From Maylandia zebra (Eukaryota > Chordata > Actinopteri > Cichliformes > Cichlidae), in NCBI RefSeq assembly GCF_041146795.1, contig NC_135176.1:20991286-21055285 (forward strand): a stretch of DNA of 64,000 bases, given 5' to 3'. Position numbers and translations under genes: made by a program. The notes under the pieces are model-generated. The model did not search any database, was not told where the DNA came from, and saw only the letters and a program-made list of their open reading frames with translations. Shown in pieces: positions 16,118-41,040 of this stretch (position 1 is the first letter of the stretch; each line of letters starts with the position of its first letter).

Positions 16118-16240
16118 CTTTATCTCAAAGTTGCTCATTGACCACAACTTAATCAAGAATTTTGTCACACAATTCGTACATTTTTTTTTCTTGCAATTGG
16201 CAAATGTGATAAGGCGTGGGCAAAGCAAGTATAAGTAATC
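16118..16240 (+). promoter_or_regulatory. Promoter of il4/13-like copy 1
   Basis: TATAAGTA at 16230-16237 lies 95 bp before the start codon, preceded by GGCGTGGGCAAAGCAAG, which is shared with copy 2 and, slightly changed, with the others. Upstream are ACCACA (16141-16146, RUNX-type) and TTATCT near 16120 (GATA-type). Conservation of this block across the array supports a core promoter. The named factors are inference. Confidence 0.6.
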
Positions 16241-16324
16241 TGTTATCTGCCAAGACTTCAGAACAAACTTCAAGGGCTTTTTTTGAGGACGCATCTTCTA
16301 AAGGTTTTCACTCTAAGTACAAGT

Positions 16325-17136
16325 ATGGAAATGATGATGATGATGCTTGTGCTAGTGTCTGCTGCGCTGATGAGTCCATGTGCTGCAAATCCCGTCCGGA
16401 GTCTCAACCTAGACCATATCATTGACTTGGCTGACCAATACAATAAAACTATGTATGAGGTAAGGGCTCATCTCATAAGAACGAGTGTTTTTTTGACTCT
16501 TAGCTTGAACATTTTATAACGTTTTTGGTGCCTTGACTTGTTAAAAAACTTGAAAGTGTGTTAAAATTTTAAATGTTGACAAATATTTTTTCTATTTAAT
16601 GTGGAAGAAGTTCTATGTTGAGGATGTGACACACTTGGTTAAATCTGGATGTGGGGTGAGAGGATCCTTTTCCATCTCTTTGAAACTGTGTTCCCTGTAG
16701 AGCATTCAGTTTTATTGGATTACATTTTTAAATGTCATTCATTTTAAACACGTCTGAAGTGAATATGTTCTCGCTCCTGTTGCATACAGAATAAGTTTTT
16801 CTGCAGAGTGCATGACATCCTGAAAAAGCATGACAGAACGGAGGATAAGAAGATTGTGAGAAACCTGGACGTGTTTTTTAAAGAAGGAAATGTAAGATAT
16901 CTTTTTGCCAAATGAAAATGTCCCATCTATGTTACAAATATGTAAGGATTATGTACTAATGGCATTTGCAATACAGTGAGCGAGATCATACTGAACCCAG
17001 GTGTTTTCTTATCTTTTAGGTGAACTGCACAGAAGAACTAATTAACGTGCCTCATGCAACAACCGAAAAGCCAATACCGTTTCTGCTGGAAAACCTTGCA
17101 AACTGCATTCGCCGGAGAAACTTCATGGGAATCTAA
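16325..17136 (+). CDS. il4/13: Interleukin-4/13-like cytokine, copy 1 (133 aa)
   Basis: Four exons: 16325-16459, 16608-16655, 16790-16891 and 17020-17136, all introns phase 0 with GT/AG ends. Exon 1 is 45 codons: a signal peptide (MEMMMMMLVLVSAALMSPCA, cleavage probably near CAA/NP) and helix A (LDHIIDLADQY). Exon 2 is 48 nt and ends SGCG. Exon 3 starts NKFFC, and exon 4 starts VNC and ends RRNFMGI. The mature protein has four cysteines and NKT and NCT glycosylation sequons. A 45-codon first exon and 48-nt second exon match mammalian IL4, and the position just 3' of rad50 matches the mammalian IL13-IL4 cluster. The exon 2 acceptor is a tandem AAGAAG, so a 45-nt variant is possible. The 3' UTR has several ATTTA motifs, typical of unstable cytokine mRNAs. 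It is the most divergent intact copy. Another rad50-linked four-helix cytokine (IL-5 or CSF2-like) is the alternative. Confidence 0.8.
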
Positions 17137-17689
17137 AAACAAAAATGCCTGATTAGCTTCGTGATCCGTGAACTGTCTGACATCTGGTAACGTCTTCAAA
17201 TGTTTTTCATAGTCACAGTTTGATACAGTTAAAGTACTGGATATTTATTTTCTGGTATAGTTTTCTCTTTTATGCAGTTTATTTGTTATTTAATAGCAAC
17301 TACATTCAGTGCTTTCACAGGGACGTTTTTGGTTGAGTTATTTTTAAGCTGCATAAGTAAAAATGCATCCGTCGCTGGCATTAAACTTTACAACAGTTAA
17401 GGCAGCAACTGCACATTATTGTAAACTGCATATTTATATTTTATTTAAAACAAGTTCAGTTCACATTTTGATATGTTTGGATGTTTGTTGTAGTTCTTTC
17501 ACTCCACATTGAAACAAGTGTTTACAGAACAAGAAGTCGTTTTTCTCACAAGCTGCATTTGTATGGAAATGCTTTGTACTTTATGTTAAGACAGTCAGCT
17601 TTAACAGACATTTTGATCCTGTTTTATTTTTATATTAAATTTTGATGACGCCTTACTTCTGACAAGCTGTCTCGTATTATTCAGTCCTT

Positions 17690-17890
17690 CAGTCCCTATT
17701 GTCTGAAAAGAGGACATACTTGTCAATATTTTCAGTTCAGTATCTTGACTTCTGTTATAATTACTTTGCATGATTGGTTCAATGCTACACTCCCTGTAAG
17801 CCAGCTGTCTTCTGATTGGTAGCTCCTCCTACATAGAAGGTTTAGGAGTAGCTGGTTGTACTCACAGCCACAACTGTGTACCTTAGATTC
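17690..17890 (+). repeat. Downstream flanking block of the cytokine unit, copy 1
   Basis: The text CTTCTGATTGGTAGCTCCTC, preceded by a TTTGCATGATTGG piece and followed by CTCACAGCCACAACTGTGTACC, recurs after the other copies (about 22200-22445, 25540-25780, 39300-39440 and 40780-41040). It marks the 3' side of the duplicated unit. Whether it is functional is unknown. Confidence 0.6.
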
Positions 17891-17895
17891 ATGTA

Positions 17896-18396
17896 CCGTA
17901 TTTTTCGGACTATAAGGCACACTTAAAATCCTTCAAGTTTTCTCAAAAATCATATGTAGTGTGCTTACTGACCTCAAACCAATTTTATGTGGTACAAGGC
18001 GCTTAAAAATCTGTCAAAAAATGTTTCAGTACAACTTTGGCAAGCTACGAAGCCGCACCACTTGATGGATTGTTGGAGCATTACGGCTACTGTAGTCAGG
18101 AGCCTCATGGAATAATCTGGGTCCAAAACTCCGTCCGCTTTAGGTCCCAAAGTCAGACAAATACTGCAGCATCACTGAGAGTTAAAAACTGTCTAAATGT
18201 TTTCATCTTTAATAAAATGATGAGTGTTGCTGCTTCACCAGGTGTAACAATTAAGTTTAACATCCAGGCATCCATGAAAACAGAATTTATTACATTTAAT
18301 GGAGTAGGAAATTAGCAGGACGTTAGTTCACTAGTTTCTACCTAAACATGATATAGCATGTTCTGACTGAGAGATTGGCGGTCTGAAAAAATACGG
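17896..18396. mobile_element. TA-flanked MITE (CGTATTTTTCGGACTATAAGG family)
   Basis: The left end CCGTATTTTTCGGACTATAA and the right end GTCTGAAAAAATACGG are inverted repeats flanked by TA (17894-17895 and 18397-18398). This terminal motif is a well-known animal MITE type with TA target duplication. No coding sequence. Confidence 0.65.
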
Positions 18397-19429
18397 TAAG
18401 CATATTCCTAAGAGAAACCACTCTTGTGTATATACAACTACCAGCCATTTTGTTAGGTACACCTGTTCAGCTACAGCATCATGTTGACCTTTGAATCAAA
18501 CAGACTAGCAGCAGATTCTGCTTTTGACATCTAAGAACAGGAAACTCAGGCTACAGTCCACAGAGGCTCACCAAAATGAAACAAGGAGACTGGAAATCGA
18601 TTTTTTTTTTTGTTCTGATAACATTGAGACTGTGTTGTGTGGCAGGTGTTTTGTTGCCAGACTTTTTAACGCTTGTGGGGTGGCTCTAGCGCAAGAGACA
18701 CCACAGATCATCTACTCATCTGCTGATCAGAGGATTGGTGGTTTGAGTCCTGGCTGCTTTGATCTGCATGGCAAATATGCTTATGCAAAATACTAACCTG
18801 CATCCATTGGAGCATTAATGTGTGCGATTGGTAGATGGAAAGCATTTAAGCATAGAAGAAAGTGCAGGTGTGAATGGGTGAATGAGGCATGTTGGATTAA
18901 GCACTTTGAATGTTCTGGGAGTAGAAAAGCAGAATTGGTCCATTTACCACTTCAAATCAAATCACTTGTATTGTCACATCACATGTGCAGGTACACTGGT
19001 ACAGCACATGTAAGTGAAATTCTTGTGTGCAAGCTTCACAAGCAACAGAGGTGTGCAAAATACAATGACATAAGAACAAAGCAAAATATAAGAATGAGAA
19101 TTCTAAGAACAAATATAAGAATGTCTGCGGTGTCTCTTGAGCTAGAGCCACCCCGCAAGCGTTCCCAAGTCTGGCAACAAAACACCTGCCACACAACACT
19201 GTCTGAATGTTATCAGACCAAAAAATCGATTTCCAGTCCCCTTGTTTCATTTTGGTGAGCCTCTGTGGACTGTAGACTGAGTTTCCTGTTCTTAGATGTC
19301 AAAAGCAGAATCTGCTGCTAGTCTGTTTGATTCAAAGGTCAACATGATGCTATAGCTGAACAGGTGTACCTAACAAAATGGCTGTTAGTTGCATATACAC
19401 AAGGGTGGATTCTCGTAGGAATATGCTTA
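18397..19429. repeat. Large inverted repeat, about 310-bp arms with a 0.4-kb spacer
   Basis: The left arm 18397-18706 and right arm 19125-19429 are reverse complements with only scattered mismatches by eye; both outer ends start TAAGCATATTCC. The arms contain Tc1-like relic text (TTTGTTAGGTACACCTGTTC and AGAACAGGAAACTCAGG) and are bordered outside by the CGTATTTTTC MITE end on both sides. The spacer has no recognised gene. Plus-strand open frames here are by-products of the repeat. Confidence 0.85.
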
Positions 19430-19659
19430 CTGTATTTTTCAGACCATAAGGCGCATTAAGTGAAACAGAACAGCCAGATAAGTCAAACTTTGCTCAACTC
19501 ATTCTCCTTACTTTCTCCATTTCCGTACCATTGATTCATTAATGTTGAATATGCATACCAAATATGTATATATACAAGTGTGTGTGTGTGTGTGTGTGTG
19601 TGTACATATGTATAAAATAAAATATACAATATACAAAGGTTAGCAGTGGATGCACTGCA

Positions 19660-20162
19660 TTCAGCATGATATGGTGCATTTCCATCAGGATAATGCACCA
19701 TATTACCTATAAATCTCTCCTTGGGCTGGTTCCCTCTTATTTATGTGTTTATATGTGTAAAAACCACAACCAGTACAGCCTTAATTTTCACAATATCGGT
19801 CCCAAAAATCAGAACAGAATTGGGGGAAAGGGCATTTAAATACGCTGCCCCTGCTTCCTGGAATAATCTGCAGAAGGAACTAAAATTATTAGAATTGGTT
19901 ACCTTGGGGGAGTTTAAGTCCATCTTAAAGGAACGAGGGAATAACTCTTTTACTCAGTGTGATTGTTTTTAATATCGCTCTTAATTTGATCTGTTATTGT
20001 ATATTTTTCACATGTTCGTACGGGGATATTGTATTTGTTTTAAATGTTATATACTTATGAGGTACATGCATTTTTGACTTTTGTTGCCATGATGCCAGGT
20101 CTCTCTTTTTTTAATCTCAATGAGATTTTTACGTGGATAGATAAAGGACTAATAAAAAAAAA
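19660..20162 (+). mobile_element. 3' end of a non-LTR retrotransposon (L2/CR1-like)
   Basis: A plus-strand frame (about 19721-19972) has the C-terminal signature found after reverse transcriptase in fish LINEs: VPKIRTELGERAFKYAAPAS then WNNLQKELK. It is followed by ATCTCAATGAGATTTTT and an A-rich tail at 20150-20162. It is a 5'-truncated copy. The first 40 bases are Tc1-like relic. Confidence 0.7.
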
Positions 20163-20460
20163 ATAGTGATCATAAATCACGAAGCTCAAATCATCTCAGA
20201 CTTGTTTCTTGGTAAGAAAATTAGGGCAAAACTGCAGATTACAGTTACTGTTTGACCAAACGATTGAGGAAACGGCTAAAACATCAGATGTTCATGAATT
20301 AAATAATCAAGTCGAAAAATGTTTACTGCCAAACTCTGTGTAATCTGTACAGTAGAAACGGATGAAATAGTAATCAGTCTAAACAAAAACCAGCACCTGT
20401 ATGAGGACGGGATTGAAAACCACATCAGAAATCAAACTTCAGACTAGTCAAGTCTTCTCA
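20163..20460. other. Tc1 relic tail and upstream flank of copy 2
   Basis: About 20166-20240 keeps AGCTCAAATCATCTCAGACT followed by TTTCTTGG, matching the Tc1-like relic at 29086-29150. The rest resembles the 5' flanks of other copies and holds no gene. Confidence 0.5.
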
Positions 20461-20596
20461 ACTTTATGAGAATATTTTCAAGTAACCATTGTAAATAGAT
20501 GTCTGTTGTTGTTTTCTTCTTCTCCTTTTTTGTAATGCAGCCCACCGTATAGACTCATTTCAGAGAAACTGTTCTCCTTTCTCAAGCTGCGTATTG

Positions 20597-20704
20597 ACCA
20601 CAACTTAATCATGAGTCTTATCTCTCCATCGCTGCAGACTGCATTTGGGGTTTTTTTTGTAATTGACAATTGTGGTGAAGGCGTGGGCAAAGCAAGTATA
20701 AATA
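20597..20704 (+). promoter_or_regulatory. Promoter of il4/13-like copy 2
   Basis: TATAAATA at 20697-20704, 107 bp before the ATG, behind GGCGTGGGCAAAGCAAG. Upstream are ACCACA at 20597-20602 (RUNX-type) and CTTATCT at 20617-20623 (GATA site, reverse). The block is shared with other copies. Confidence 0.6.
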
Positions 20705-20803
20705 ATCTGTTCATCAGCCAAGACCTCACAGCAACCTGCAAGCTGACAATTGAGCAGAAATACTTTAAAGGCTTTTCAGCTTTTCAGCCAACTAATAACA
20801 AGT

Positions 20804-21681
20804 ATGGAGATGATGACATTTGTGCTGGTGTCTACTGTGGCCCTGCTTATCAGTCCATGTGCTGCAAATCCCATGTACAATATGAACTTAAACAATATCA
20901 TTGACCTTGTTCAAGAATACAGTAAAACTTTGAATGAGGTAAGACCGTATCTTATACATTTAACTGCCTCTTAGCATTCATAGAGCTTTTTGTTGTTCTT
21001 GTTGTTAGTTTACTTTTATTTTTTCTGCTTTGTTCAAGTTTTTAAAACTTGATTGTGACAATTTGTCTCTCCAACGTTGCAGAGTATCTATGTGGAGGAT
21101 GTGACACACTTGGTTGAATCTGGATGTGGGGTGAGAAGACTACTTTTCATGTCTTTGAAACAGTTTGCAAGCTTTCCATTCAGGTTTCTTTTTTGAGAGA
21201 CTGCAATAAGAACAGTGATCTCTTTTTAACATTTTAATTGTGTTTATTTGTAACGCTAATACTTGTTTATGTTTCATACAGAATAATTTCATCTGCAAAG
21301 TGCACGAGATCCTGGAAAACCATGCCACAAAGCAGCAGAAATATAAAGAGAAGGAGATTGTGAGAAACTTGGAAGTGTTTATTAACGGCACAAATGTAAG
21401 ATATCTTCTCTGACATATTTCCTATATAAGGTATACATCAAATCTGTGTTACGCACCTTTAGAGACAATGTACTAAATCTACCTGTTGTGTCTTTGGTGA
21501 GACAAAGAATCTGCAAAACAATAAAACATATTGTACTGAGCTCAGCTGATTTCTTGTCATTCAGGTGAACTGCACTGAAGTACTGAAGACTGTGCCGAAG
21601 GCAAGAACTGAAAAGCCAATACCGGCTTTGCTGGAAAACCTCAAGATATGCATTCAGAAGAGAAACTTCAGTGGAAAATAA
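20804..21681 (+). CDS. il4/13: Interleukin-4/13-like cytokine, copy 2 (137 aa)
   Basis: Exons 20804-20938, 21083-21130, 21282-21395 and 21565-21681, all phase 0 with GT/AG ends. The signal peptide is MEMMTFVLVSTVALLISPCA; helix A contains LNNIIDLVQEY; exon 2 (48 nt) encodes SIYVEDVTHLVESGCG; exon 3 has NNFICKVHEILENHA and a three-to-four-residue insertion (KQQKYKEKE) relative to other copies; exon 4 runs VNCTEVLK to RNFSGK. Four mature cysteines and NGT, NCT and NFS sequons. The 3' UTR is AU-rich and AATAAA lies at 22094-22099. Predicted to be a secreted type-2 cytokine acting on IL-4/IL-13 receptor chains (family knowledge). Nothing in the frame suggests inactivation. Confidence 0.8.
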
Positions 21682-22199
21682 AAACACGCCTGGATACCTT
21701 CCAAATCTGTGGACTGTCTGCCATAATGCTTCCAAGTCATTTTCTTTGTTCTTTTTTTTTTTCTTTTTGTAATTTATCACAATTCAAGCATTGGATATTT
21801 ATTTCATTCTATAGTTTAAGACAGTATTTTTCTTCCTTTTTATGCAGTTGATGTTATTTAATAGTAGCTATATTCGGTACATTAGCAAAGACATATCTGA
21901 CTGAGCTGTGTTTAATTGCATTTGTAAAAATTTATGTGTAGCTGTCGTCAAACAGCACAACAGATCAACTTGACATGTTATTGTACAACTGCGTATTTAT
22001 TTTTTATTTAAGTTAAGGATTTTTAATATATTTGTATTACATATTTATTGCAATTGTCTCACATTGCATTGAACCAAGTGTTTACAGAACAATAATAAAT
22101 CACTTTTATCCACAAGTCCCAGTTTGTATGGAAATGCTTTGGGCTTTATAGCAAGACAATTAACTTTTACACACATTTGGCTGTTAAGATCACATTTTG

Positions 22200-22445
22200 A
22201 TGATGGCGTCATTTGTGGCTCACTATATTAGTTCTTGGCTTCTGTTAGCATAACTTTGCATGATTCATTTATACTGACCGAGCTGCAGACTCTCAGTCCA
22301 TCCACTGTCTGAAATTAGCCTTTTGCTTGAAAACTACACTCCCTAAGCTACTTTTCTCATTGGTTGCTCATCCCTAACGGAAGGTTTAACCTGCAGGTGG
22401 GTGGAGCTGCTGTACTGACTGACAGAGCTGTGTACCTGAGATAAC
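22200..22445 (+). repeat. Downstream flanking block of the cytokine unit, copy 2
   Basis: It shares ACTTTGCATGATTCATTTAT, CATCCACTGTCTGAAAT, the inverted CCAAT setting TCTCATTGGTTGC and GCAGGTGGGTGGAGCTGC with the blocks after copies 1 and 3 and at 39300 and 40780. Confidence 0.6.
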
Positions 22446-22489
22446 AATATTAAGGATACCACCACCTCTCAGTCTAACATTGTGTGTAT

Positions 22490-23926: not shown

Positions 23927-24989
23927 ATGGAGATGATGATGTTTGTGCTGGTGTCTGCTGTGGCCATGCTGATCAATCCATATGCTGCAAATCCCGTCAG
24001 TAACGACAACCTAAACCGTATCATTGACCTGACTGAGAAATACAACAGAGATCTGAATGAGGTAAGGGTTCATCGTATAAGCAAAATTGTTTGAGTGACA
24101 CTTAGCTTGAAATTTTTTTTGGTGCCCTAACTTGTTAAAACCTTTAAAAGGTGTTTGCAATGTTCAGTTACAAATATTTTTTCTATTAAATTCGATTACA
24201 TTTTTTGGTGCCTTATCTAGACAAATGATTCAATATGTTATAAGTGTTAGCTGACAAAGTAATTTTTTCTTGGATCTTACAGAGGTTCTTTGTGGAGGAT
24301 GTGTCTTACCTGGCTGACAATGGATGTGGAGTGAGGAGACGTTTTTTCATGTCTTTGAAACAATGTTCCTTTTAATTCATTCAGTTTTCTTGAATTGTTC
24401 TTCTGATTGGCAGTTTGAGTTGGTTATTTATTTATTTTGACAAACTGCAGAAAAAACACTAGCCAACTTGTATAATTGTAAATGCATGTGTTTTTAAAAG
24501 CTTATAAATCCGTCCTTGTGTTCCATACAGAATAACTTCTTCTGCAAAGTGCATGACATCCTACAAAAGCATGCCAAAAATAACAGCGAGAAAGATATTG
24601 TGAGAAACCTGGAAATATTCATTAAGGAATCAGATGTAAGTTATCTATTTTGACACATCTCCAACTTAAGAACAACAAATCTGTGTAGTCTGTGAAGGTT
24701 CTCAGTCATCCAGGTCATCATAGTCTAAGGAGTTTGGAAAGAAAAGCGTCAGTCTGTGTTGTAAATATTTAGAGACAATGTGCTAACCTCACTTTAGGTA
24801 GACAAATGCATCTGCAAAACTGAGCATATATACTGAACACAGATTCCTGTCTTTCAGATAAACTGCAAAGAAGTACTAAAGAAAGTAGGGCCGTCAGACA
24901 AAGAACAGCTACTACCTGATTTGCTGGGAAACCTCACCAAATGTATTCAGAGAAGAAATTTCATGGGAAACGTAACACAAGCTGCCTGA
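23927..24989 (+). CDS. il4/13: Interleukin-4/13-like cytokine, copy 3 (139 aa)
   Basis: Exons 23927-24061, 24283-24330, 24531-24635 and 24858-24989, all phase 0 with GT/AG ends. The signal peptide is MEMMMFVLVSAVAMLINPYA, helix A has LNRIIDLTEKY, exon 2 encodes RFFVEDVSYLADNGCG, exon 3 starts NNFFCKVHDILQKHAK, and exon 4 starts INCKEVLKKV and ends QRRNFMGNVTQAA. It therefore has a five-residue longer tail than copies 1 and 2. Four mature cysteines and NNS, NLT and NVT sequons. The start codon context ACAAGTATGG matches copies 1, 2 and 5. The 3' UTR is AU-rich with AATAAA at 25409-25414. It is the closest relative of copy 5 throughout and of copy 4 in the 3' half. Confidence 0.8.
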
Positions 24990-25539: not shown

Positions 25540-25780
25540 TATCATTCTGCCCTTTCAACATCTTAATAGGGAGATATTATATTCATTTGCAGCAGTTCTT
25601 GGTCTCTGTCAGAGTTCCCCATGCCATCCATGCTCTGGAGTGAACCTTTGGCTTTGATACTGCATGCATTTCAAGTCAGCTTCCTTGTGATTGGCAGTCT
25701 AATCAAAACAACCACAAGCTCCACCCAAAGCAGGTGGGTGGAGCTGCTAACTCACAGCCACAGCTGTGACATCCCACAGC
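25540..25780 (+). repeat. Downstream flanking block of the cytokine unit, copy 3
   Basis: GCAGCAGTTCTTGGTCTCTG, CTTGTGATTGGCAGTC and GCAGGTGGGTGGAGCTGC align by eye with the other downstream blocks. Confidence 0.55.
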
Positions 25781-26455: not shown

Positions 26456-26460
26456 AAGTC

Positions 26461-27919: not shown

Positions 27920-29165
27920 TATAATCACCAGCATTTTGTCAGGTACACAACTGCAACAAGATGTTGAACCTTGAATCAAATTGAGTACAGTAGCAGAAGA
28001 CTGCACCAGGTCACACTCCTGACATCTCGGAACACGAAACTGAAGCTGCAGATCATGCAGGCTCACCAAAGTTGGGAAATAGAGGATGTGAACAATGTGG
28101 TTTGGTCTGATGATTTAGTTTCTGCTGTGACATTCAGACAGTAGCTTCAGAATTTGGTGTAAATGACATTAAAGCATGGATCCATGCTGCCGTGTATGAA
28201 CGCTCTAGGCTGCTGGCGGTGGTGATGCAATGTGAGTGATATTTTCTTGGCACACTTTGTACTAGTGGTGGGCGGTTCGATCCAAATATCGATTGTATCG
28301 ATACCAAGTCGGCATCGATATCGGATCAATACTAGCCTGGTGAGATTGATTCTTTACTTTAAGTTCCGCTCTTGTTTGCAGTGCTGTGGTTTGGGAAAAG
28401 ACGAAACAGCCAGGTCGCCGGACTCGCCGCTCCTGTGTCAGCACAGAGCAGGCACACTTTACTCCCCCTCCTCCTCTTGTGTTTAGATGTTGCGCCATCA
28501 TGTGACGTGACTCAGATGCTTTGGGGGTTGTTAAATTGTTTACATATTATTTATATTTTCACCAGTTGTTTTTTTGTTGAGAATTTTAGATGTCATTTTT
28601 GTGTTACAGTTTCTCAACAGTACTTGTTTGTTTTAATTTGTTTACTGGTTTGCGTGCACTTTTCATTTTAGGTTTTGTCAAAAAAAATTGATAATATTGG
28701 TTTTCTATAAGTATTTTCTATTTAATTATAAATTTTGTCCTAATTATGTCCTAGGTTTTAACTATTTCATACTAAAAAAGGAAACATCATAAAAAAAACT
28801 TAAGTTCATGAAAATTAATTGAGATTTAGCAATTCAATGGTGCATCCACCTTATTTATTGAAAAGTATCAGTATCGGCGATACTGGCCTGTATTTACTTG
28901 GTATTGAATCGATACCAAAATATGCAATGTCGCACACCACTACTTTGTACTAACTGAGCATCATTAAATCATAAAAGCCTGATTGAGTATTGTTGCTGTT
29001 CATGTCCATTTCTCCCTGTAGGATCACAGTGTACCCATCTTCTGATGTCTGCCTCCAGCAGGACAAGGGAACATGTCTCACAGCTCAAATCATCTCAGAC
29101 TGGTTTCTTGAACATGAAAGTGAGGCAAAATTGCCAGTTACACTCAATATATGCTCACAAAGTTA
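27920..29165 (+). mobile_element. Tc1-like transposon relic in the copy 3-4 spacer
   Basis: Same Tc1 family as 22490-23410, here its central and right parts: CACCAGCATTTTGTCAGGTA, GAACACGAAACTGAAGCTGC, GTTTGGTCTGATGA, and after an insertion GATCACAGTGTACCCATCTT and CATCTCAGACTGGTTTCTTG. The coding frame is broken. The hAT element 28263-28942 splits it. Confidence 0.75.
28263..28942. mobile_element. hAT-like non-autonomous element, 680 bp, 8-bp target duplication
   Basis: The ends TAGTGGTGGGCG and CGCACACCACTA are inverted repeats flanked by CTTTGTAC at 28255-28262 and 28943-28950. ATCGATACC-type subterminal repeats occur near both ends. No transposase is recognised. It interrupts the Tc1 relic. 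Confidence 0.85.
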
Positions 29166-29689: not shown

Positions 29690-30672
29690 ATGACGATGCT
29701 CATGCTGGTGTCTGCTGTGGCCATGCTGATCAGTCCATGTGCTGCAAATCCTGTCCGTAATCTTACTCTCAGCGATAGTCTTAACAGTATCATTGACCTT
29801 GTTGAACAATACAGTGAAAATCTCACTAAGGTAGGAGCTCATCTTATAAGCACAACTGTTTTCTGGACTCCTAACACTCATAGAGCTTTTTGTTGTTGTT
29901 GTTGTTAGTTAACTCGTGTTTTTTCTGCTTTGTTCACGTTTTTGGTGCGTAAAACTTGTTTGTGACAATTTGTCTCACCAATGTTGCAGAGTTTCTATGT
30001 GGAGGATGTGACACATTTGGTTGAATCTGGATGTGGGGTGAGAAAACTTCTTGTCTTTGAAACAGTTTGCAAGTTTTCCATTCAGGTTTTTTTTTTTGAG
30101 ATACTACAACAAGAACAGTGGTCTCTTTTTTACATTTTATTTATGTTTATTTGTAAAGCTTAGTTTACTTATTTATGCTTCATACAGAATAACTTCTTCT
30201 GCAAAGTGCATGACATCCTACAAAAGCATCCCAAAAATGACGAAGAGAAAGATATTTTGAGAAACCTGGAAATATTCATTAAGAAATCACATGTAAGTTT
30301 TTTTTGGGTTTTCTCAGATGTAAGTTATCTTTTTTGACACATCTCCAACTTAAGAACAACAAATCTGTGTAGTCTGTGAAGGTTCTCAGTCATCCATGAT
30401 CATAGTTTAAGGAGCTTAGAAAGAAATGCGTCAATCTGTGTTGTAAATATTTAGAGACAATGTGCTAACCTCACTTTAGGTAGACAAATACATCTGCAAA
30501 ACAGTGAGAGATATACTGAACACAGATTCTTGTCTTTCAGATAAACTGCAAAGAAGTACTAAAGAAAGTAGGGCCGTCAGAAAAAGAACAGCCACTACCT
30601 GATTTGCTGGGAAACCTCACCAAATGTATTCAGAGAAGAAATTTCATGGGAAACGTAACACAAGCTGCCTGA
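29690..30672 (+). CDS. il4/13: Interleukin-4/13-like cytokine, copy 4 (141 aa), mosaic
   Basis: Exons 29690-29830, 29990-30037, 30188-30292 and 30541-30672, all phase 0 with GT/AG ends. The ATG used by the other copies reads GTG here (29684-29686). The next in-frame ATG, two codons on, gives MTMLMLVSAVAMLISPCA and keeps a signal peptide. Helix A has LNSIIDLVEQY, exon 2 encodes SFYVEDVTHLVESGCG, exon 3 starts NNFFCKVHDILQKHPK, and exon 4 ends QRRNFMGNVTQAA. Four mature cysteines; sequons NLT (three) and NVT. Exon 1, intron 1, exon 2 and intron 2 resemble copy 2, while exon 3 to the 3' UTR is nearly copy 3, with the switch near 30185. AATAAA lies at 31093-31098. No premature stop is seen. An upstream in-frame TTG at 29600 is not a likely start. 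Confidence 0.75.
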
Positions 30673-31099: not shown

Positions 31100-31339
31100 C
31101 ACATCTGCTAATTTCTTTGAACAGTATATTTCCAGGTAACCACTTTGAGTGGATGGCAGTCTGTTAATAACTTGCTTTTTTTTTTTTCATTTTTTGAAAT
31201 GTGAACGGTCATGTAGACCCTTTCAAAGTCAAAGTCTCAAGTCAAAAATCTTTACTACCATTCACTGTAATTTGTAGAGTAGGAAGTGATGTAACAATTT
31301 TCAGTGGAAACCAAAATCATTGGCTCTTTGGCCAGATTT
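31100..31339. repeat. Junction of copy-4 3' flank with two upstream-flank fragments
   Basis: Just after the copy 4 AATAAA the text jumps to CTAATTTCTTTGAACAGTAT, which is the upstream flank of copy 4 itself (29340). Near 31220 it switches to a copy-3-like upstream flank (CAAGTCAAAAATCTTTAC). The usual downstream block and Tc1 relic are missing, so a deletion or unequal crossover removed them. Confidence 0.6.
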
Positions 31340-34300
31340 TTTTGTGATTAATATTCTATTGTAATTTTAGAACACTACGGTCCACTGTAGATACAGATTA
31401 CGTCACATAAAAAAAGCATCGGCAGAACAGTAGAGAATACAAACCCAAAATGAAGGGGGACAAACAAAACAAGAGATAAACAAACAAGCAAAAAAACAAA
31501 CAAACAAAAACACAGCCATCCTTTGACTACGTGGGTCTTGCTGCATGCCACACTCTGTCATCCCTGAGAGTGCTTCGTCAGAATCCCAATGTCTGTGCCA
31601 CTCTAAGTTCTAGTCTGATCCTTTTACTCTGAACAGATATGGATCCCACTTCAGGTGGAAGCTTTCCACTTTATTCAGAAGCCTGTATGAGAGTTGTTCT
31701 AGTGCAGCAAGTCTCCCTAGTTGAACATGCCATACAGAGACAGGTGGGGTGGAAAGGGCCTTCCACTGGGAGATAATGAGTTTACGCCCCAGCATCAATG
31801 CAGTCTGTACCCACTCAGCAGCCTTAGGCAGAGCATGTTTAAGGAGTGATGGGTCCCCCAAAACGAGTAGTCTTGGTGAAAAAGGAATATCCCATCGTAT
31901 GGTTGATTTGATAAAGTCATGTATCTCAGTCCAAAAGATTTGGGTTTTAGGACAGCTTCAAATCATATGGGTCAATGTGCCCACCCCAGTCTGACATCCC
32001 CAGCATTCAGGGGACTGTATGAGGTTTGCCCTGTACAGTCTGTGTGGCGACCAGTAAATCTGGTGTAGTAATTTGAATTGGATTAGTCTCGTTCTAAGTT
32101 CCCTGGACACCTTTTTGCTATTCTGCAAAATTGTAGTCCATTCCTGATCTGTAAAAACCACACCAAGGTCAGCTTCCCAAGCTAATCGGAGGGCAGGTAG
32201 CCCTTTACTCGTGCCCTTAACAAGCATTGAGTAATATTTAGAGACTTCATGACTTCCCCCAAAGATTTTTTTGATGTAGCTGAGATATTCAATAATTGGA
32301 GGTGGTGAGGAGGAAGAACCAAAGGTTTTGAGCAATAAGTGCCGGAGCTGCAAGTATCTCCAAAACTGACTCTGTGGCACCTGAAACTGTGCTTTAAGGT
32401 CGTTGAAGGACTTGAGAATTCTCCCCTGATACAGGTCTCCAAGAACAAGTATCCCTCTCTGGACCCACAGTCTCCAGAAGAACGGAGACTTATTAATGCA
32501 GAGTTTGGGATTGAGCCATATGGAGGCCTTAGTATGAAGGTAGGAGTTAAAATTTAATAGCAAGGCCACCTTCTTCCAGACTGTCTACAGGAACGAAAGA
32601 ATGGGGTGGGTTTATATATCTGGTGAGAGCTTGGTGGTTAAAATGTGCATCGGAGGGAGTGGTGACCACAAAGTACTCTCAAGACTAAACCATGGGATTT
32701 TTAGCGGGAGTGTTTGTAGTAGGTAATTAAATTTTGGAGCACAATTCATTTTGATGATGTTAACTTTGCCCCAAAGGGTGAGAAACAAAGGGGACCATCT
32801 AATTATGTTGGTTCTGAACGTGTTCAATAGAGGTTCAAAATTAACCTGAACTATGTTAGATAACAAAGGGGGGAACGTAATGCCCAAGTATTTAATACCA
32901 GTCTGAGGCCAGCTGAAATCCCCTGGCTGGAACAGGGTTTTGGGGCAGAAGGCTGTCACAGGGGGCGCTTCAGACTTTGACCAATTTACTCTATATCCTG
33001 ATATATTAGAGAACCGGTTAATAATTCTTTAGAGAGCAGGTAGAGAGTGTTCTGGCTACAATATCAGGACCAGAGCATTGTCAGCATAGAGCATCAATTT
33101 GTGATTATTATTGTGGACCTGGATACCTGGAAAATTAGGGCCTCTACGTATTGTCGCTGCCAGAGGCTCTAAAGCTAGAACAAAAAGCAGAGGACTCTGT
33201 GGGCAGCCCTGTCTTGTACCTCTGTGGAGGTCGAAGGACTGTGATATAATACGGTTCATTAGTAGTAATGCTCTTAGATTGTTGTAGAGAAGTTTGATCC
33301 ACCTTGTGAATTTTGAGCCATTACACAAAATAGGAAACACCACTCTACCCTGTCAAATGCTTTCTCTGCATCTAGGGAGAGGGCTATAGCTGGAGAAGAG
33401 TCCCCCGTAGGGGATTTATTCTGGGTTGCCCACATAATATCAATTAGGCATCTAATGTTATCGGCAGAGCTGCGAGTCCAAATAAAACCGACTTGGTCGG
33501 GGTGTATTAGGTAAGTCTTGACCTTATCTAATCTGGTTGCTAGTACCTTGGCCAGAATTTTGCAATCGCAATTGATCAAGCTGATGATCAAGCTGATTGA
33601 TCAAGAAATCAAACCACGAAGCCCTATAATATTGAAACTAAACAGTTTGTACAAAGTATATCGTGTATAGCGTGTTAATTAACACTAGGGCAAAAAAAAA
33701 AGGTTGTGTTTAAATCCAAGCCCATGACTGTAAATAACTCCCTTAAGGTAAAGACAGAATGTAGTCCTGGGCTTTTTTTGGGTTGGTAAACTCACGTCTG
33801 CCCGCCGTCATTTTCAGCACCAGCACTGCTGGGAAAAGTGGGGAGAACTTCATTTTCCTTTCGTGCAGCAACCGTTTACAGGGATTAAATGCTGCTCGTT
33901 TGTCCATGACAACTTTGGAGTAGTCGGGGAAGATCATGATGTGGTGGTTGTTCCAGCTCAGCTGCCCCAGCCTCGGCGCAGCTTCCACGATCCGTTCCCT
34001 GTCCTGGAACCGTAGAAATCAGGCGATGATGATCTTTGGGGGATGACTGTCAGTTTTGCGTCTCACTAGGCTGCGGTGTGCGCAGTCAATCTCCAGCCCG
34101 CCCAGGAAGTTGTAAGGAGTTGTGGAATTGTGTTGTGCACGAGTGTCAGAGCGTCCGAACCCTCACAGCCCTCGGGAAAGCCAGCAAAGTGCAGGATTTT
34201 TCTCCATCCTCTGTTTTCAAGATCATCTAATTTCTGTCGTAGAGCGTTTACCTCGTCACTAGTAGCAGGAGGATTTTCCTTTAGCACTCTGCTAGCATCT

Positions 34301-34749
34301 TCAAGGAAATCCAGGTGAGACTCAGCGTTGCTTATTCGAGTAGCCATATCCTCTAGCTTAGCCTCCACTGCCCTCGTAGCAATTTGGATAGAATTGAGTT
34401 TGCTCTCTTGTGTCTCGGTTGCAATGGACTTGCAATGTCCTTGGCCATTTGTTCAGTTGTAGCAGCCTGGATAGTATCCGACATTGAAGGTGAGGGCGGG
34501 CGCACATCATTAGCTTTCGCCGAGGTTTCCTTGCTAGCGCCTTCTTGCCGTTGAAGCGTAAGTTTTTGTTAGTGACTCTGCATTATGAGCTTTCACAAAG
34601 AGTCTTCAAGCTTCCCACAGCCCTGGGGTGATATTTTGTAAGTGTTGTGTAGCGCAATGTTCTAAGTCTAACGCAAATTAGCTGCCACTGCGACGGAGCT
34701 TCCCCATTCAAGCTGCCATCTTGACAGCCTACGTCACCGGACTCCCCCC
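31340..34749 (-). mobile_element. L1/Tx1-like LINE, internally deleted, 13-bp target duplication
   Basis: Read on the minus strand. An ORF1-like part (about 33743-34480) has a coiled-coil stretch and LDDLENRGWRKILHFAG then FPEGCEG, as in L1 ORF1 proteins. A reverse transcriptase part (about 33000-33600) has LDAEKAFDRVEW, GTRQGCPQSPLLF and YADNALV, where the usual YADD is changed. A C-terminal part (31958-32569) is frame-broken. The endonuclease region between them is missing. The direct repeat TTTGGCCAGATTT at 31327-31339 and 34750-34762 marks the insertion, which lies in the upstream flank of copy 5. Confidence 0.85.
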
Positions 34750-34762
34750 TTTGGCCAGATTT

Positions 34763-35130
34763 AAAATCACACCTCAAATCAAAGTTAAGATTGTTTGAGT
34801 CTTCCCCCATTTTTCTCAGCAGTATCACTTTGCGTGGATCACAGTCTGTAATGAAGTTTCTTTTGAAAGTACCATTTTTTTTTCATCTTTTCTGTAATGC
34901 AACCAAGTCTATTGGTTATTCTGAGAAAAATAGTTTCGTTTCTGCTCATTGACCACAAACTAATCATGGATCTTATCGCCAAGGAGCTGCAGACTGTTTT
35001 TTGGTTTTTTGTAACTGGCAAATGTGATGAAGGCGTAGACAGACCAGATATAAATAACCTGCTCTCAGCCAGCACTTCACAACAACTTCAAGGACTTCTG
35101 CTTTTCAGCCAACGAACAACAAGTATGGAG
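34763..35130 (+). promoter_or_regulatory. Original promoter and leader of il4/13-like copy 5, cut off from its gene
   Basis: Nearly the same as the copy 3 promoter: ACCACA 34952-34957, CTTATC 34972-34977 and TATAAATA 35049-35056. The ATG that belongs to it (35125-35127) is followed by GAG and then TAG from the inserted hAT element, so it now opens a two-codon frame. The real coding sequence starts 1.37 kb downstream. Confidence 0.7.
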
Positions 35131-36495
35131 TAGAGATGGCACGATACCACTTTTTTATGTCCGATACCGATACCGATATCATAAATTTGGATATCTGCCG
35201 ATACCGATATGAATCCGATAGTGTTTTTTAATCAACAAAACTGTTTTTTAAAATATCTTGCTGCATTTTGTATAAGTTCATACTCAAGTTTAAAACAACA
35301 ACTACACTAAAGCTATTCTGTTATACCTGTATGCAAAAAAAATGTTTCATAGTTCAGCAATACTGATCAATCTAATAAACTTAGACCTACACCATCCTCC
35401 CTATTCTGGTATTTTAAAGAGTACTTAGCGTAAATATTAAGCAACCTAACTAATAGGGTTCCAACTCCCAGCAACAACAAAAATAAATAAATAAAAAATA
35501 GGGAACTACCCCTCACGCGCCACCTCATGATGCTTAATTTGATGCAGTGTGAAAAAAATGCACAGAAATCAATTATTTTTCAAGAAATATTAAATAGATT
35601 CAACATCTTTCTTCAACAGAATTGCAGACTGCACAGATGGTACCTTCCCAAAGGAAAAAGTACTATAGCTTACTAGGGTATATATATTAGACTTAATAGT
35701 TACTATATACAGTAATTGACTTCTATTCATTTTGCATCAAATTAAAACTTTGGGTGTCAGATAATTATTTATTAAAAGCTTGACATTTTAAATGAGAATA
35801 AGAAAGAAAAGTATGTCTTTGTGCCCCCTTTTCCCTGTTCATGCCCTACCGGCCCCCCTGGCTAAACTTTGCTAGATCCGCCCCTGCACAAATACCAACG
35901 TCAGCTACGTAGAAAAAGATCCTGGAGTAGAAAGTAATATTAAATACATTCTAACAACAGCTGATCAAGCTTAAACGTGCTTCTGTTGTTCAGCCGCTGG
36001 TTTCCTCTTTCTGGTGCAAAGTGGGCCAAAAGCAAACTAGAGACACGGACTCACGACAGAAAAGCTGATCAGCTGATCGTTAAGCAGTTTCATGATTGAA
36101 GTAGCAGCAAGAAGAGGCAGTCGCTCCATATATCGTTTGTTAAGCTTAACGCAGGAATGCTTTACAAACATTCAGAGATGGACTTACACACTTGCTTTAC
36201 TTCTCTCGGGGATAACTTTGTCGGAGATGAAATGCCGGGTTGCTAGCGAAGCTCCAAATGCTATCCAGAGCACCGACAGGTCCCGCATGCCACAGCCGCT
36301 CTATCACGTGATGCATACTGCTCCAACGTGCTAACGTTCTGAGGTGAGTTACGGCGTATTGCAAGTTTTGTGAGGTGCTTTCGTGATATTTAATGGATCG
36401 GATTACATTTTTTATTTTTCTCCGATATCCGATCCAGTAATTTAGGTCAGTATCGGACCGATACCGATACGTAATATCGGATCGGTCCATCTCTA
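35131..36495. mobile_element. hAT-like element inserted at the start codon of copy 5
   Basis: 1365 bp with ends TAGAGATGG...CCATCTCTA and subterminal ACCGATACCGATA-type repeats. It is flanked by perfect 8-bp direct repeats GTATGGAG at 35123-35130 and 36496-36503, which include the start codon of copy 5. No transposase frame is recognised, so it is non-autonomous. Confidence 0.9.
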
Positions 36496-36497
36496 GT

Positions 36498-37598
36498 ATG
36501 GAGATGATGATGTTTGTGCTGATGTCTGCTGTGGCCATGCTGATCAATCCATATGCTGCAAATCCTGTCAGTAACGACAACCTAAACCGTATCATTGACC
36601 TGACTAAGAAATACAACAGAGATCTGAATGAGGTAAGGGTTCATCGCATAAGCACAATTGTTTGAGTGACACTTAGCTTGAAATTTTTGTAACATTTTTT
36701 TGGTGCCCTAACTTGTTAAAACCTTTAAAAAGTGTTTGCAATGTTCAGTTACAAATATTTTTTCTATTAAATTTTTTGGTGCCTTATCTGATTCAATATG
36801 TTAAAAGTGTTACCTGACAAAGTAATTTTTTATTGGATCTTACAGAGGTTCTTTGTGGAGGATGTGTCTGACCTGGCTGACAATGGATGTGGGGTGAGGA
36901 GACATTTTTTCATGTCTTTGAAACAATGTTCCTTTTAATTCATTCAGTTTTCTTGAATTGTTCTGCTGATTGGAAGTTTGAGTTGTCTTTTTTTTTTTTT
37001 TTTACAAACTGCAGAAAAAACACTAGCCAACTTATATAATTGTAAATGCATGTGTTTTTAAAAGCTTATAAATCCGTCCTTGTGTTCCGTACAGAATAAC
37101 TTCTTCTGCAAAGTGAATGACATCCTACAAAAGCATGCCAAAAATGACAACGAGAAAGAAATTGTGAGAAACCTGGAAATATTCATTAAGAAATCAAATG
37201 TAAGTTATCTATTTTGACACATCTCTAACTTAAGAACAACAAATCTGTGTAGTCTGTGAAGGTTCTCAGTCATCCAGGTCATCATAGTCTAAGGAGTTTG
37301 GAAAGAAAAGCGTCAGTCTGTGTTGTAAATATTTAGAGACAATGTGCTAATCTCACTTTAGGTAGACAAATACATCTGCAAAACTGAGCATATATACTGA
37401 ACACAGATTCCTGTCTTTCAGATGGACTGCAAAGATGTACTAAAGAAAGTACGGCCGTCAGAAAAAGAACAGCCACTACCTGATTTGCTGGGAAACCTCA
37501 ACAAATGTATTATAAGGAGGTATAATCCATTTGAAATGGATTCCACAGACAAGTCTTTTTCAGACTTTTACTTTTGTTTCAAGAAAATACCATGTTAG
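36498..37598 (+). CDS. il4/13: Interleukin-4/13-like cytokine, copy 5 (154 aa), altered C-terminus, displaced promoter
   Basis: Exons 36498-36632, 36846-36893, 37095-37199 and 37422-37598, all phase 0 with GT/AG ends. Exons 1-3 are close to copy 3 (MEMMMFVLMSAVAMLINPYA, RFFVEDVSDLADNGCG, NNFFCKVNDILQKHAK). Exon 4 starts MDCKDVLKKVRPSEKEQPLP and stays parallel to KCI, then departs to a 28-residue tail, IRRYNPFEMD...FCFKKIPC, with two extra cysteines. The tail resembles no other copy. The glycosylation sequons of copies 3 and 4 are gone. A hAT element separates the start codon from the ancestral TATA box, so expression would need readthrough, splicing within the element, or a new promoter. The frame is open, but this may be a gene on its way to loss. 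Confidence 0.65.
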
Positions 37599-37849
37599 AG
37601 AGATATTTGAACTGTCTGATATGTGATCACTTGAATGTTTTTCATAATTCATAAAGTGTACGGGTTAGCCCATTTGTTTGCCAAGCATAAGTTTCCGATT
37701 CAATTCTGGCCAGAAATACAAATTCCTTTTTGGAATACAACAAAAAGAACAATGGTTGTGAAACTGGACATTTGTTTTAGCTTATAGTATAGTTTAGTAA
37801 GCTATTAGTATTTTCTTTTCTTTTTTATGCCTTTATCATCCTTTTAGAC

Positions 37850-37940
37850 AAATGACCTGTCCAAGATGTACCCTGCCTCTTGCCCTATGGCAGCTGGGAT
37901 AGGCTCCAGCCCCCCATGACCCTTAAGCTAAAGAGATGAA
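37850..37940 (+). repeat. 3' part of a teleost SINE
   Basis: GACCTGTCCAAGATGTACCC, TGCCCTATGGCAGCTGGGAT and AGGCTCCAGCCCCCCATGAC are the tail of the same SINE family as 55220-55500. Confidence 0.7.
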
Positions 37941-38395
37941 TGGATATATTGTCATTAAAACGTTGAGCAGTTTAATCATCTATTCAAATTGTTTATTACC
38001 CACATACTCAGGTCAATTCTAATACCTATTAAAGTGAAACTTATTTAGAGATCTAATAATGGGTAACTTTGACAGTTTTGTGTTCTATTTTGACAGGTTT
38101 GTGACATATGGTGGGTAGAAAATTGGTTATTTTTGAAGTATGGGTCGCTTTGATAGCACAAACAGTCCAAAGTTGTAGAATTCCATAATTGGTGAAATTT
38201 ATAGCCTATATTTGCCAGTACAAACTGGTTTACAGTTATAGAAATGCTAACCTGAGCCATATACCTCTCAAACTAACTGTAAAAATGTCTGGGAAGAATT
38301 GCCCAGAAGGTAATGCAATACAAGTTTTGAATATCATAGAGAGGTCACAATTGTGTAAACTGACACATTGATTCAAGTAAGACATGAATAAATTA

Positions 38396-38480
38396 GGGCT
38401 GTCAATGTTAACGCATATCAATCCATCATCACAATTAACACGATTAAAGCAATTAACCCATCTGGAGCGCAGAATGACTC
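38396..38480. repeat. Fragment of a hAT-like repeat (GGGCTGTCAATGTTAACGC type)
   Basis: The GGGCTGTCAATGTTAACGC start and ATTAACACGATTAAAGCAA are typical of a common fish terminal repeat. No matching right end was identified. Confidence 0.4.
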
Positions 38481-38565
38481 AAGTAAAGCTCAAGTAATCT
38501 CAAAGTGGTTTATTCAACATGATAATGAGGGGGGAAATGTAATGCAAACAAACATATACGTTCAT

Positions 38566-38780
38566 TTTAGAGAAACAGTTCCTTTTCTGCTTATTGACCG
38601 CAACTTCATCATAAGCCTTATCTCACAGTCACCTCAGATTGCATTTGTAACCGACAAACATGCCAAAGACGTAGGCAAAGCAAGTATAAGTAATCTGATC
38701 TGAACCAACATCTCACAACAACCTGCCAACTGAGCAAAACAACCACTTTAAGGGCTTCTGCTTGAAAACATGTTTACTAC
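38566..38780 (+). promoter_or_regulatory. Orphan copy of the cytokine promoter
   Basis: GAGAAACAGTTCCTTTTCTG, TTGACCGCAACTT (RUNX-type core changed), CCTTATCTC (GATA-type) and TATAAGTA at 38685-38692 align with the promoters of the intact copies. The leader follows to about 38770, but no exon 1 does. A second promoter relic begins about 70 bp later. Confidence 0.6.
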
Positions 38781-38839
38781 TTTGTGGATTCTGTTATCAA
38801 CTTTCTTCTGAAAGTACCACTTTTTTTCTCTACTGTCTA

Positions 38840-39190
38840 TAGGTTGTTCTTTGGAGAAACATTGATTCTATTCATTGATCACAAATTAATTACACATTTC
38901 ATCTTACTGTCTGCATTTGGATTTTTTTGTAACTGGTGAATGTGATGAAGGTATGGGCAAAGCAAATACAAATAATCGGCTCTCAGCCAAGACATCACAA
39001 CAGCTTACAAGCTGAGCAACACAACAGAAACAAGGTCTTCAAGGCCAGTTTCTTGAAATTGTTTATGAGATGATGATGTTTATGCTGGTGTCTGCTGTGG
39101 TCGTGGCAATCCATCCTTGTACTGGAAATCCTGTCTATCATGACATTCTAAACATATCTTTGAACAATACAATGAAACTCTCACTAAAGT
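38840..39190 (+). pseudogene. il4/13: il4/13-like copy 6, decayed promoter and exon 1 only
   Basis: A degenerate promoter (ATACAAATA near 38966 where the others have TATAAATA) is followed by an exon 1 relic. From about 39071 it reads MMMFMLVSAVVVAIHPCTGN, recognisably the signal peptide, then LNISLNNTMKLSLK before a stop. Compared with the other copies, bases are missing in helix A (IIDLVEQY is lost) and the frame shifts. The first ATG of the MEMMM start is damaged too. A GTAAGG donor-like site survives at about 39188. Exons 2-4 are absent: the sequence passes directly to the downstream block at 39300. Confidence 0.75.
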
Positions 39191-39299
39191 AAGGGCTCAT
39201 CTTATAAGCACAAATGTTTTCTTGACTGTTAACTATTAACATTCATACACACAGTTTTTGGGGGGGTTGTTTTATATACTTTGTTCAAGCCTTCATTTT

Positions 39300-39440
39300 C
39301 AGTTCATATCTGTACTCCCTTTAAGCCAACATTCTTCTGATTGGCTGCCCATCCCTAAAAGAAGGTTTGAACTGCAGGTGGGTGGAAGTGCAATACTGGC
39401 AGTCAGAGCTGTGTACTTGAGATAACCATGACATCACACA
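39300..39440 (+). repeat. Downstream flanking block of the cytokine unit, copy 6
   Basis: CTTCTGATTGGCTGCCCATC and GCAGGTGGGTGGAAGTGC match the blocks after copies 1-3, here directly after the exon 1 relic. Confidence 0.6.
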
Positions 39441-40344
39441 GCAGCAAAAGTAAACATAAATAAATAAATAAAAATGGCAAACTGAGCATAATTTATATGT
39501 GATTTTTGCTGATAGTAAATGATGCTTAATACTTACCAGAATATAATCAAATATTTTAAAAAATAAGTACATTTAAGTTTAACCAATATAACAAATATGG
39601 AAGAAATGCAATGACGTGAGTTTGCAATTTAAGCTTAAATCCTATATTAAATCATGTATGTGGAAAGGTCAGATGGATAGAGAGAGGATGTTGAGGTGTG
39701 GCTGGATATTTGGTGATTAGATATTAATAATGTGATTGGATGTCTCTATGGGTGAGAAGAGATATAATTTCAGAAGATGTGTGAAAAGAGAGTATGTTGA
39801 GAAGATCTAGTTGCCATTTAAGCACGCTGTGATTATACTGCCTTTAAGCAGAGATTCAAGTAATGGTTAAGAGGACAGCAAGCATATCAGTGAGTTGAAG
39901 GACAGGCTGAAAGCGTGATAGTGTCACTGGTTTTTTTTCTTTCCTCTTGTCATTTTTTTTCTTCCCTGGTTGATTTTACATTAAAGGCCGTATTTTAAAC
40001 AGCATTCTGTTCTTTTACTGGGTTTGTCTTTATGTCAACTGGGACAGGTGCAATATTATAGTCTGGCAATGTGCAGTCCCCAAGGCTTAAAATAGGTGAC
40101 AGGAAGGGAGTTCAGACAAGAAGTTCACTTAAATATAAACTAATTTATTAAACATGATCTAACCAAGACATTATCAGTGGAGGCAGTGAAGACGTCTAGC
40201 CTTTGAGGTAGTTACAGCTGGGCATGCCCCCTCACTTCTCAGGCTTCATCAGCTTTGCACTGCCTACTGGGTAAGATCAATAGGATCAGATGTTAACAAT
40301 TTTTTTTAGCAGAAGGCCAATCCAGGCTTCCTGTGTTGGGGTGC
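39441..40344. other. Spacer, no gene recognised
   Basis: About 0.9 kb of AT-rich sequence with no coding or RNA feature that I can support. Confidence 0.35.
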
Positions 40345-40770
40345 TGTTCCCTGCCGATCGACAAGCAGCAGACCACACCAGGTCGCACTGCTGGCACCTA
40401 AGGAAAGGAAACTGAGGCTACAAGTCACACAGTGCCACCAAAGTTAGAGACTGGAAAGTTTCAAAAATGTTGTGTGGTCTGATGACTTTATTTCTGCTAC
40501 AACATTCACGCAGGCAGGTTCGGAATTTGACATAAATAACATAAAAGCATGGACCCATCCTACATTGTATCAGCAGTCTAAGCTAGTGGTGGTGGTGGTG
40601 ATGGCACAATGATAATTGATATCTTCTTGGCACACTTTGGGTTCCTTTGTACCTACTGAGCATCATTAAACTGTAAAAGCCTTAGTACTGTTGCTGATCA
40701 TGTCTATCCTTCTGATGACCACAGTGTACCCATTTTCTGATGGCTTCTGGTTGTATTTTCATAATGCTGA
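40345..40770 (+). mobile_element. Tc1-like transposon relic at the end of the array
   Basis: AGCAGACCACACCAGGTCGC, GGAAACTGAGGCTACAAGTC, TTCTTGGCACACTTTGGG and CACAGTGTACCCATTTTCTG are from the same family as the relics in other spacers. Broken, without an open transposase frame. Confidence 0.75.
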
Positions 40771-40779
40771 ACTTTTGGC

Positions 40780-41040
40780 ATGCCATCGTTTCTCATTCTG
40801 TCCTTTTAAGGGAACATATTAATTTCATTTTCAGCAGTTCTTGGTTATGGTCTAATTCTTGTTCTCTATCAGAGTAACTTTGCAGGATTCCCTCACACCA
40901 GAACATGGTGCAGACCCTGAGGTCATCCACTGTCTGAAATGGCTCCCTTTAAGCAGACTTTCTTCTGATTGGCTGCCCCTCCCAAAGCAGCTGGTTGAAG
41001 CTGCCGAACTCACAGTCACAGCAGTGTACCTAAAAAGTCT
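40780..41040 (+). repeat. Orphan downstream block of the cytokine unit
   Basis: GCAGTTCTTGGTTATGGTC, CATCCACTGTCTGAAATGGC and CTTCTGATTGGCTGCCCCTC match the other downstream blocks, but no cytokine exon lies before it. It marks the right edge of the array and suggests a lost seventh unit. Confidence 0.55.

Follow-up and report, generated by a model that had tools for sequence, protein, structure and literature searches.

A tandem array of putative IL-4/13A genes beside rad50 in Maylandia zebra, including a mosaic copy

The published neighbourhood of the teleost IL-4/13A gene runs LARS, RBM27, POU4F3, IL-4/13A, RAD50, DRD1 (PMC11649633), and in other euteleosts IL-4/13B is placed between KIF3A and ATRX (PMC5440397). 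In the European sea bass, two A-type genes, IL-4/13A1 and IL-4/13A2, lie in tandem next to RAD50 with four exons and phase-0 introns, are 37.9% identical to one another and are joined by a separate single IL-4/13B; the activities of these three isoforms are described as overlapping yet distinct (PMC5440397). Here, we describe a likewise tandem locus in a 64,000-nucleotide stretch of the Maylandia zebra genome (C10:20991286-21055285, henceforth the window), in which five four-exon genes, G1-G5, lie head to tail on the plus strand at 16325-37598, 3' of rad50. It is very probably the IL-4/13A locus of teleosts, in which tandem expansion has produced at least seven promoter-bearing units, five of which would still be protein-coding.

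Two tandem IL-4/13A genes were already known from the sea bass (PMC5440397); new here are five, one of them a mosaic, along with relics and, as in the sea bass, a separate single candidate B gene. In the open-access literature, we found neither a teleost described with more than two tandem IL-4/13A genes nor an account of this locus in a cichlid. The turbot IL-4/13A gene shares with the array the order of POU4F3, IL-4/13A and RAD50 and the four conserved cysteines, but differs in a fifth cysteine that adjoins the last conserved one, and no array is mentioned for it (PMC11649633). Outside the teleosts, frogs, gar and elephant shark are described as carrying IL-4/13 genes singly or in tandem (PMC9465101). 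Elephant shark has several in one RAD50 locus, with names up to IL-4/13D, although in this species and in frogs, unlike in teleosts, there is one undivided KIF3A-RAD50 locus (PMC4690019, PMC4905449, PMC9465101). The mammalian IL13-IL4 pair likewise consists of tandem four-exon cytokine genes beside RAD50; yet its two members are specialised as IL-4 and IL-13 and differ in receptor use, whereas the genes described here would be multiple copies of a single A-type gene. Should G1-G4 all be expressed, they would form the largest teleost IL-4/13A cluster that we found mentioned, in a rapidly radiating group of fish.

Gene models and family identity

The models of the five genes, built from homology and splice signals with only the sequence to go by, are as follows.

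16325-17136, plus strand: G1, IL-4/13A-like; exons 16325-16459, 16608-16655, 16790-16891, 17020-17136; 133 amino acids
20804-21681, plus strand: G2, IL-4/13A-like; exons 20804-20938, 21083-21130, 21282-21395, 21565-21681; 137 amino acids
23927-24989, plus strand: G3, IL-4/13A-like; exons 23927-24061, 24283-24330, 24531-24635, 24858-24989; 139 amino acids
29690-30672, plus strand: G4, mosaic, IL-4/13A-like; exons 29690-29830, 29990-30037, 30188-30292, 30541-30672; 141 amino acids
36498-37598, plus strand: G5, IL-4/13A-like, with C-terminus and 3' untranslated region (UTR) replaced; exons 36498-36632, 36846-36893, 37095-37199, 37422-37598; 154 amino acids

All introns are GT-AG and in phase 0 (three per gene, in 5/5 models). 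Exon 1 comprises 45 codons in G1, G2, G3 and G5 and 47 in G4, where a GTG stands at the position of the other copies' start and the first in-frame ATG is at 29690; exon 2 measures 48 nucleotides (nt) in all five genes, and exon 3 measures 102-114 nt. Exon lengths vary across the copies solely by multiples of three, intron lengths vary freely, and the two alternative frames of each coding sequence contain 8-13 stops. Each protein has a hydrophobic N-terminus that, judged by eye, ends at AANP (5/5), and an extra cysteine falls within the putative signal peptide in G1 and G2. The mature cysteines are residues 60, 66, 98 and 124 in G1, 60, 66, 102 and 128 in G2, and 60, 66, 99 and 125 in G3, with spacings of 6/32/26 in G1, 6/36/26 in G2 and 6/33/26 in G3, G4 and G5. 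G5 has six mature cysteines, four of them at the common places, because its sequence past 37511 is no longer homologous to that of G3.

These models agree with an original prediction for this DNA of five four-exon, open-frame genes on one strand, with a first exon of 45-47 codons, a 48-nt second exon, phase-0 introns and four mature cysteines at fixed places. Its five-gene array stands as far as the five open frames go, but only G1-G4 look sound, G5 being doubtful and probably in decay. When the G3 protein was searched against the whole genome (962 Mb, as for all genome-wide searches), 18 matches were obtained, every one of them inside the array; the other four copies are 54-82% identical to G3.

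Two exons define the flanks.

15136-15322, plus strand: rad50, last coding exon (phmmer against the PDB, E 9.2e-25, matching RAD50 residues 1246-1312 of 1312; acceptor read from the sequence)
50551-51489, minus strand: a pou4f gene, main coding exon (Pou at E 2.9e-31 and Homeodomain at E 4.8e-18); an upstream exon was read too

From its residues we take the latter gene to be pou4f3, and the open reading frames (ORFs) at 60-62 kb are presumably rbm27-like, two of them having given no match in Pfam. With RAD50 on one side and POU4F on the other, the array matches the published setting of IL-4/13A (PMC11649633, PMC5440397). The original prediction had likened the RAD50 neighbour to that of the mammalian Th2 cytokine cluster; rad50 itself is confirmed, but the region is best compared with the A locus of teleosts, from pou4f3 to rad50. 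It had also matched the exon sizes to mammalian IL4, which does not hold for exon 3: in the array this exon, at 102-114 nt, is nearer the range of tetrapod IL-13 (105-114 bp) than that of IL-4 (126-177 bp) (PMC4905449). The cysteine spacing of 6/32-36/26 (5/5) is close to the 6/34/26 of turbot, where the conserved cysteines are residues 64, 70, 104 and 130 (PMC11649633).

A search of the genome for the ADD domain of ATRX gave two places (150 of 440 candidates scored). On C2, the ADD-domain exon was confirmed as ATRX, and approximately 5.7 kb from it lies a single gene, divergent from the array.

C2:37624946-37625780, strand opposite to atrx: candidate il4/13b; four exons of 141, 39, 105 and 126 nt; phase 0; 136 amino acids

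Seven cysteines are present in its product, of which 59, 65, 99 and 119 (spacing 6/34/20) stand at the corresponding places of exons 2, 3 and 4; when aligned, they pair with the G3 cysteines at every one of the four places and with those of G1 at just three. Shuffle tests covered G1-G4. For G1, G3 and G4, every one of 1000 shuffles scored below the global alignment, and for G2, 983 did; with the mature part alone the score was reached by 0 (G1) and 2 (G3) shuffles per 1000. Its position and these alignments suggest that the gene is probably il4/13b. No KIF3A turned up within the 30 kb that were read. The second ADD domain, ATRX-like and 72% identical, is at C10:11996890-11997000, on the same chromosome as the array; a second IL-4/13B beside it was rejected, as no such exon occurs in the 20 kb read.

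Together, the flanks, the exon plan, the cysteine spacing and the gene beside atrx make a tandem expansion of teleost IL-4/13A the best reading of the array, and the prediction that IL-4/13-type genes have expanded in tandem next to rad50 is thus backed by synteny, exon plan and cysteine spacing. Several results nevertheless weigh against this reading. The profile search against IL-4 and IL-13 that had been proposed as a check named no family above the cut-off: in Pfam, 0/5 array proteins matched IL4 or IL13 (the best sub-threshold hit, E 0.0024, was to an unrelated family), and the PDB sequence search of the same five gave no cytokine and nothing better than E 0.089. The C2 gene has an exon 2 of 39 nt, as against 48 nt in the array, and a last cysteine spacing of 20, as against 26; its mature-part shuffle test is weak for G4 (34/1000) and G2 (150/1000), its tblastn search did not recover the array, its best PDB matches were marginal ones to kinesins (E 0.0009), and its Pfam IL4 match lay below the cut-off (E 0.025). 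In addition, the ratio of non-synonymous to synonymous divergence (dN/dS) is 0.82 for G4-G5 and 2.08 for G3-G5, and fell below 1 at p<0.05 in one of the six pairs tested (G1-G3, p=0.047). However, accepted IL-4/13A, IL-4/13B and human members are published as 16-18% identical (PMC5440397), so that the missing profile match says little and the tblastn failure of the C2 gene, an A versus B comparison, is unsurprising.

By homology, the products of G1-G4 are most likely secreted class-I helical cytokines, which would bind IL-4R-alpha with gamma-c or IL-13R-alpha-1 and would signal through STAT6 to give type-2 responses. If so, type-2 ligand diversification, dosage and receptor choice would be testable in a single locus. 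In fish of this kind, quantitative PCR or knock-out aimed at "the" il4/13a may reach only part of the copies.

Decay and maintenance of the copies

G5 is a copy of G3, with 34 of 977 non-coding bases different, and is accompanied by the following elements.

34763-35130, plus strand: promoter and 5' leader of G5; TATA at 35049; differs from the promoter of G3 at 15 of 352 aligned bases
31340-34748, minus strand: long interspersed nuclear element (LINE) with reverse transcriptase, upstream of the G5 promoter; RVT_1 E 7.2e-12 in ORF 33274-33591 (minus strand)
35131-36495, plus strand: hAT-like element of 1365 bp, inserted at the G5 start codon; 8-bp target duplication GTATGGAG

The LINE is bounded by a 14-bp target duplication (31326-31339 and 34749-34762). 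The 8-bp duplication of the hAT-like element includes the start codon, and the promoter and coding exon 1 of G5 are thereby separated. What had been predicted as an orphan promoter at 34763-35130 is in fact G5's own, isolated by these two insertions. An unspliced transcript from the old TATA would carry 23 ATGs ahead of the real G5 start, 22 of them within the hAT-like element, and the duplicated original ATG now meets a stop after two codons. At the opposite end, homology to G3 stops at 37511, inside exon 4, and the last residues and 3' UTR are unlike those of the other copies; past this point, just a short repeat was matched elsewhere (40 of 1314 candidates scored). Because its start codon has been cut from its promoter and its C-terminus and 3' UTR have been replaced, G5 is probably decaying despite its open frame, which, in simulation, is expected from drift alone with a probability of 0.84 at the assumed age. 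The hAT-like element is abundant, with 2723 candidate copies in the genome; 40 were scored, and the other 39 are 94-97% identical.

Two further units lie downstream of G5.

38540-38780 (approximate), plus strand: Ga, orphan promoter without a gene; 233 columns align with the promoter of G4 at 74.7% identity
38790-39219, plus strand: G6, relic with degenerate promoter and frame-broken exon 1 (exon at 39070)

Counting Ga and G6, the array has seven promoter-bearing units; the sixth, exon-1 relic that had been predicted is G6, the frame of which is indeed broken. With G5, G6 and Ga all damaged, the array could be the remnant of a birth-and-death process in which one or two copies work and the rest, weakly or not expressed, are kept by drift and gene conversion. 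No difference between coding and non-coding divergence was seen between G3 and G5 (18/378 versus 34/977, p=0.27) or in the 3' block common to G3 and G4 (10/237 versus 30/651, p=1.0), and five of the six dN/dS tests were not significant. Conversely, G1-G4 each retain an open frame, splice sites and a promoter, and the restriction of length differences to multiples of three in exons, as opposed to the free variation of introns, also speaks against such a remnant. In a neutral simulation with substitutions only and assumed branch lengths of 0.2 (0.1 for G4), the probability of remaining stop-free under drift was 0.17 for G1, 0.11 for G2, 0.12 for G3 and 0.29 for G4. A birth-and-death remnant is therefore possible, but we regard it as doubtful: G1-G4 look maintained as a set, each singly less surely.

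All seven pairs of G1 or G2 with another copy have a synonymous divergence (dS) of 0.39-0.52 and a dN/dS of 0.58-0.65, and dN/dS is 0.61 for G3-G4. At assumed rates, the dS of 0.40-0.52 among G1, G2 and G3 would place the duplications well before the East African radiations. An East African cichlid source accords with a comparison to 20 published csf1ra primers of Astatotilapia burtoni: 15 match exactly and five with a single mismatch, all inside about 9 kb of C2, whereas a gsdf primer of that species gave no exact match. Positive selection on G3/G5, which differ by 16 non-synonymous and 2 synonymous changes, found no support, since the non-synonymous rate could not be told apart from the non-coding divergence (p=0.17).

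Exchange between copies

G4 agrees with one only of G2 and G3 at 379 informative sites, and the best single break among these falls at 30180-30193, at the start of exon 3. To its left, 116 of 153 sites are G2-like, while to its right 208 of 226 are G3-like, a partition that 0 of 2000 shuffles equalled. Counted by region, the ratios of G2-like to G3-like sites are as follows: promoter and leader, 20:5; exon 1, 12:16; intron 1, 35:10; exon 2, 11:1; intron 2, 38:5; exon 3, 2:19; intron 3, 5:43; exon 4, 2:37; sequence beyond, 9:109. Trees of exon 1 plus intron 1 (bootstrap 100) and of exon 2 plus intron 2 (91) place G4 with G2, and those of exon 3 plus intron 3 (99) and of exon 4 (100) place it with G3/G5; in the promoter tree, the G4-G2 grouping is weak (bootstrap 52).

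G4 is thus a mosaic, G2-like from intron 1 to intron 2 and G3-like from exon 3 onward. Its exon 1 is no closer to G2 than to G3, and the left part is itself uneven; an origin of the entire 5' half from G2, helix A included, was rejected on the exon 1 sites. With helix A assigned to exon 1 (PMC4905449), the predicted protein would have an A-B loop of the G2 type (exon 2) and helices B-D of the G3 type (exons 3-4), and, if these are IL-4/13A genes, G4 would represent a natural exon-swap experiment. G1 also looks mixed in origin, with an intron 1 that is 74-75% identical to that of G3/G5 versus 52% to that of G2, and an exon 2 that is 90% identical to that of G2/G4 versus 73% to that of G3. Unequal crossing-over or conversion among the copies has probably reshaped the locus.

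A bolder interpretation is that the copies function together as a set of type-2 ligands that arose in part by exon shuffling. G4 could then pair receptor contacts found in no other copy, promoters that differ in GATA sites could assign copies to different tissues or receptor complexes, and the cichlid type-2 repertoire would have been diversified under the influence of parasites. At one aligned promoter position, the GATA site TTATCT is present in G2, G4 and Ga only, and a GATA site common to all promoters was rejected; G3 and G5 have TTATCG there, and the GATA sites of the G1 promoter are at other positions. About half a GATA site per promoter is estimated by chance, so this evidence is weak, as are the STAT6-like promoter sites, which occur in G3 and G5 only. 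We consider such a shuffled working set unlikely.

It is very improbable that the array represents a different short-chain family among the type-2 locus cytokines (IL-3/IL-5/GM-CSF) instead of IL-4/13. The Pfam and PDB searches named no family, and gar and elephant shark have IL-5-family genes in their type-2 locus (PMC4690019); yet the position between POU4F and RAD50, the exon plan, the phase-0 introns and the cysteine spacing are those of published IL-4/13A (PMC5440397, PMC4905449, PMC11649633), and for teleosts other than cyprinids no candidates of the IL-5 family are reported (PMC4690019). That the array is partly an assembly artefact, with haplotypes or mis-joined reads set in tandem, is hardly credible, given that even the closest pair, G3-G5, differs at the non-coding bases counted above, that each copy has its own flanks and insertions, and that the contig is chromosome-sized (34.9 Mb).

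Repeats and further features of the window

One supposed member of the array drops out.

40853-40986, plus strand: supposed orphan downstream block; matches 22229-22315 and 39315-39358 and is related to a dispersed repeat

Genome-wide, at least 40 matches to this repeat (22220-22460) were obtained; among those listed, 4 are on C10 and 36 on other contigs. The orphan downstream block of the original prediction is therefore a piece of dispersed repeat, and its candidacy as a per-gene enhancer was rejected on the same ground. In the first 0.4-0.5 kb past the stop, ATTTA motifs number 4 in G1, 7 in G2, 2 in G3, 3 in G4 and 1 in G5; because about 1.3 are expected per 0.5 kb at the rate of the window, this point in favour of the IL-4/13A reading is notable for G1 and G2 only.

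Upstream of the last rad50 exon, the ORF at 13274-13861 is, by its motifs, presumably Tc1/mariner transposase-like; it gave no match in Pfam. A segment outside the genes is common to the G3-G4 spacer (27992-28259) and the 3' end of the array (40364-40639), at 73.6% identity, and may mark another lost unit, or a repeat. Finally, an inverted repeat lies between G1 and G2, its arms at 18380-18707 and 19124-19445 being 92.7% identical over 328 columns.

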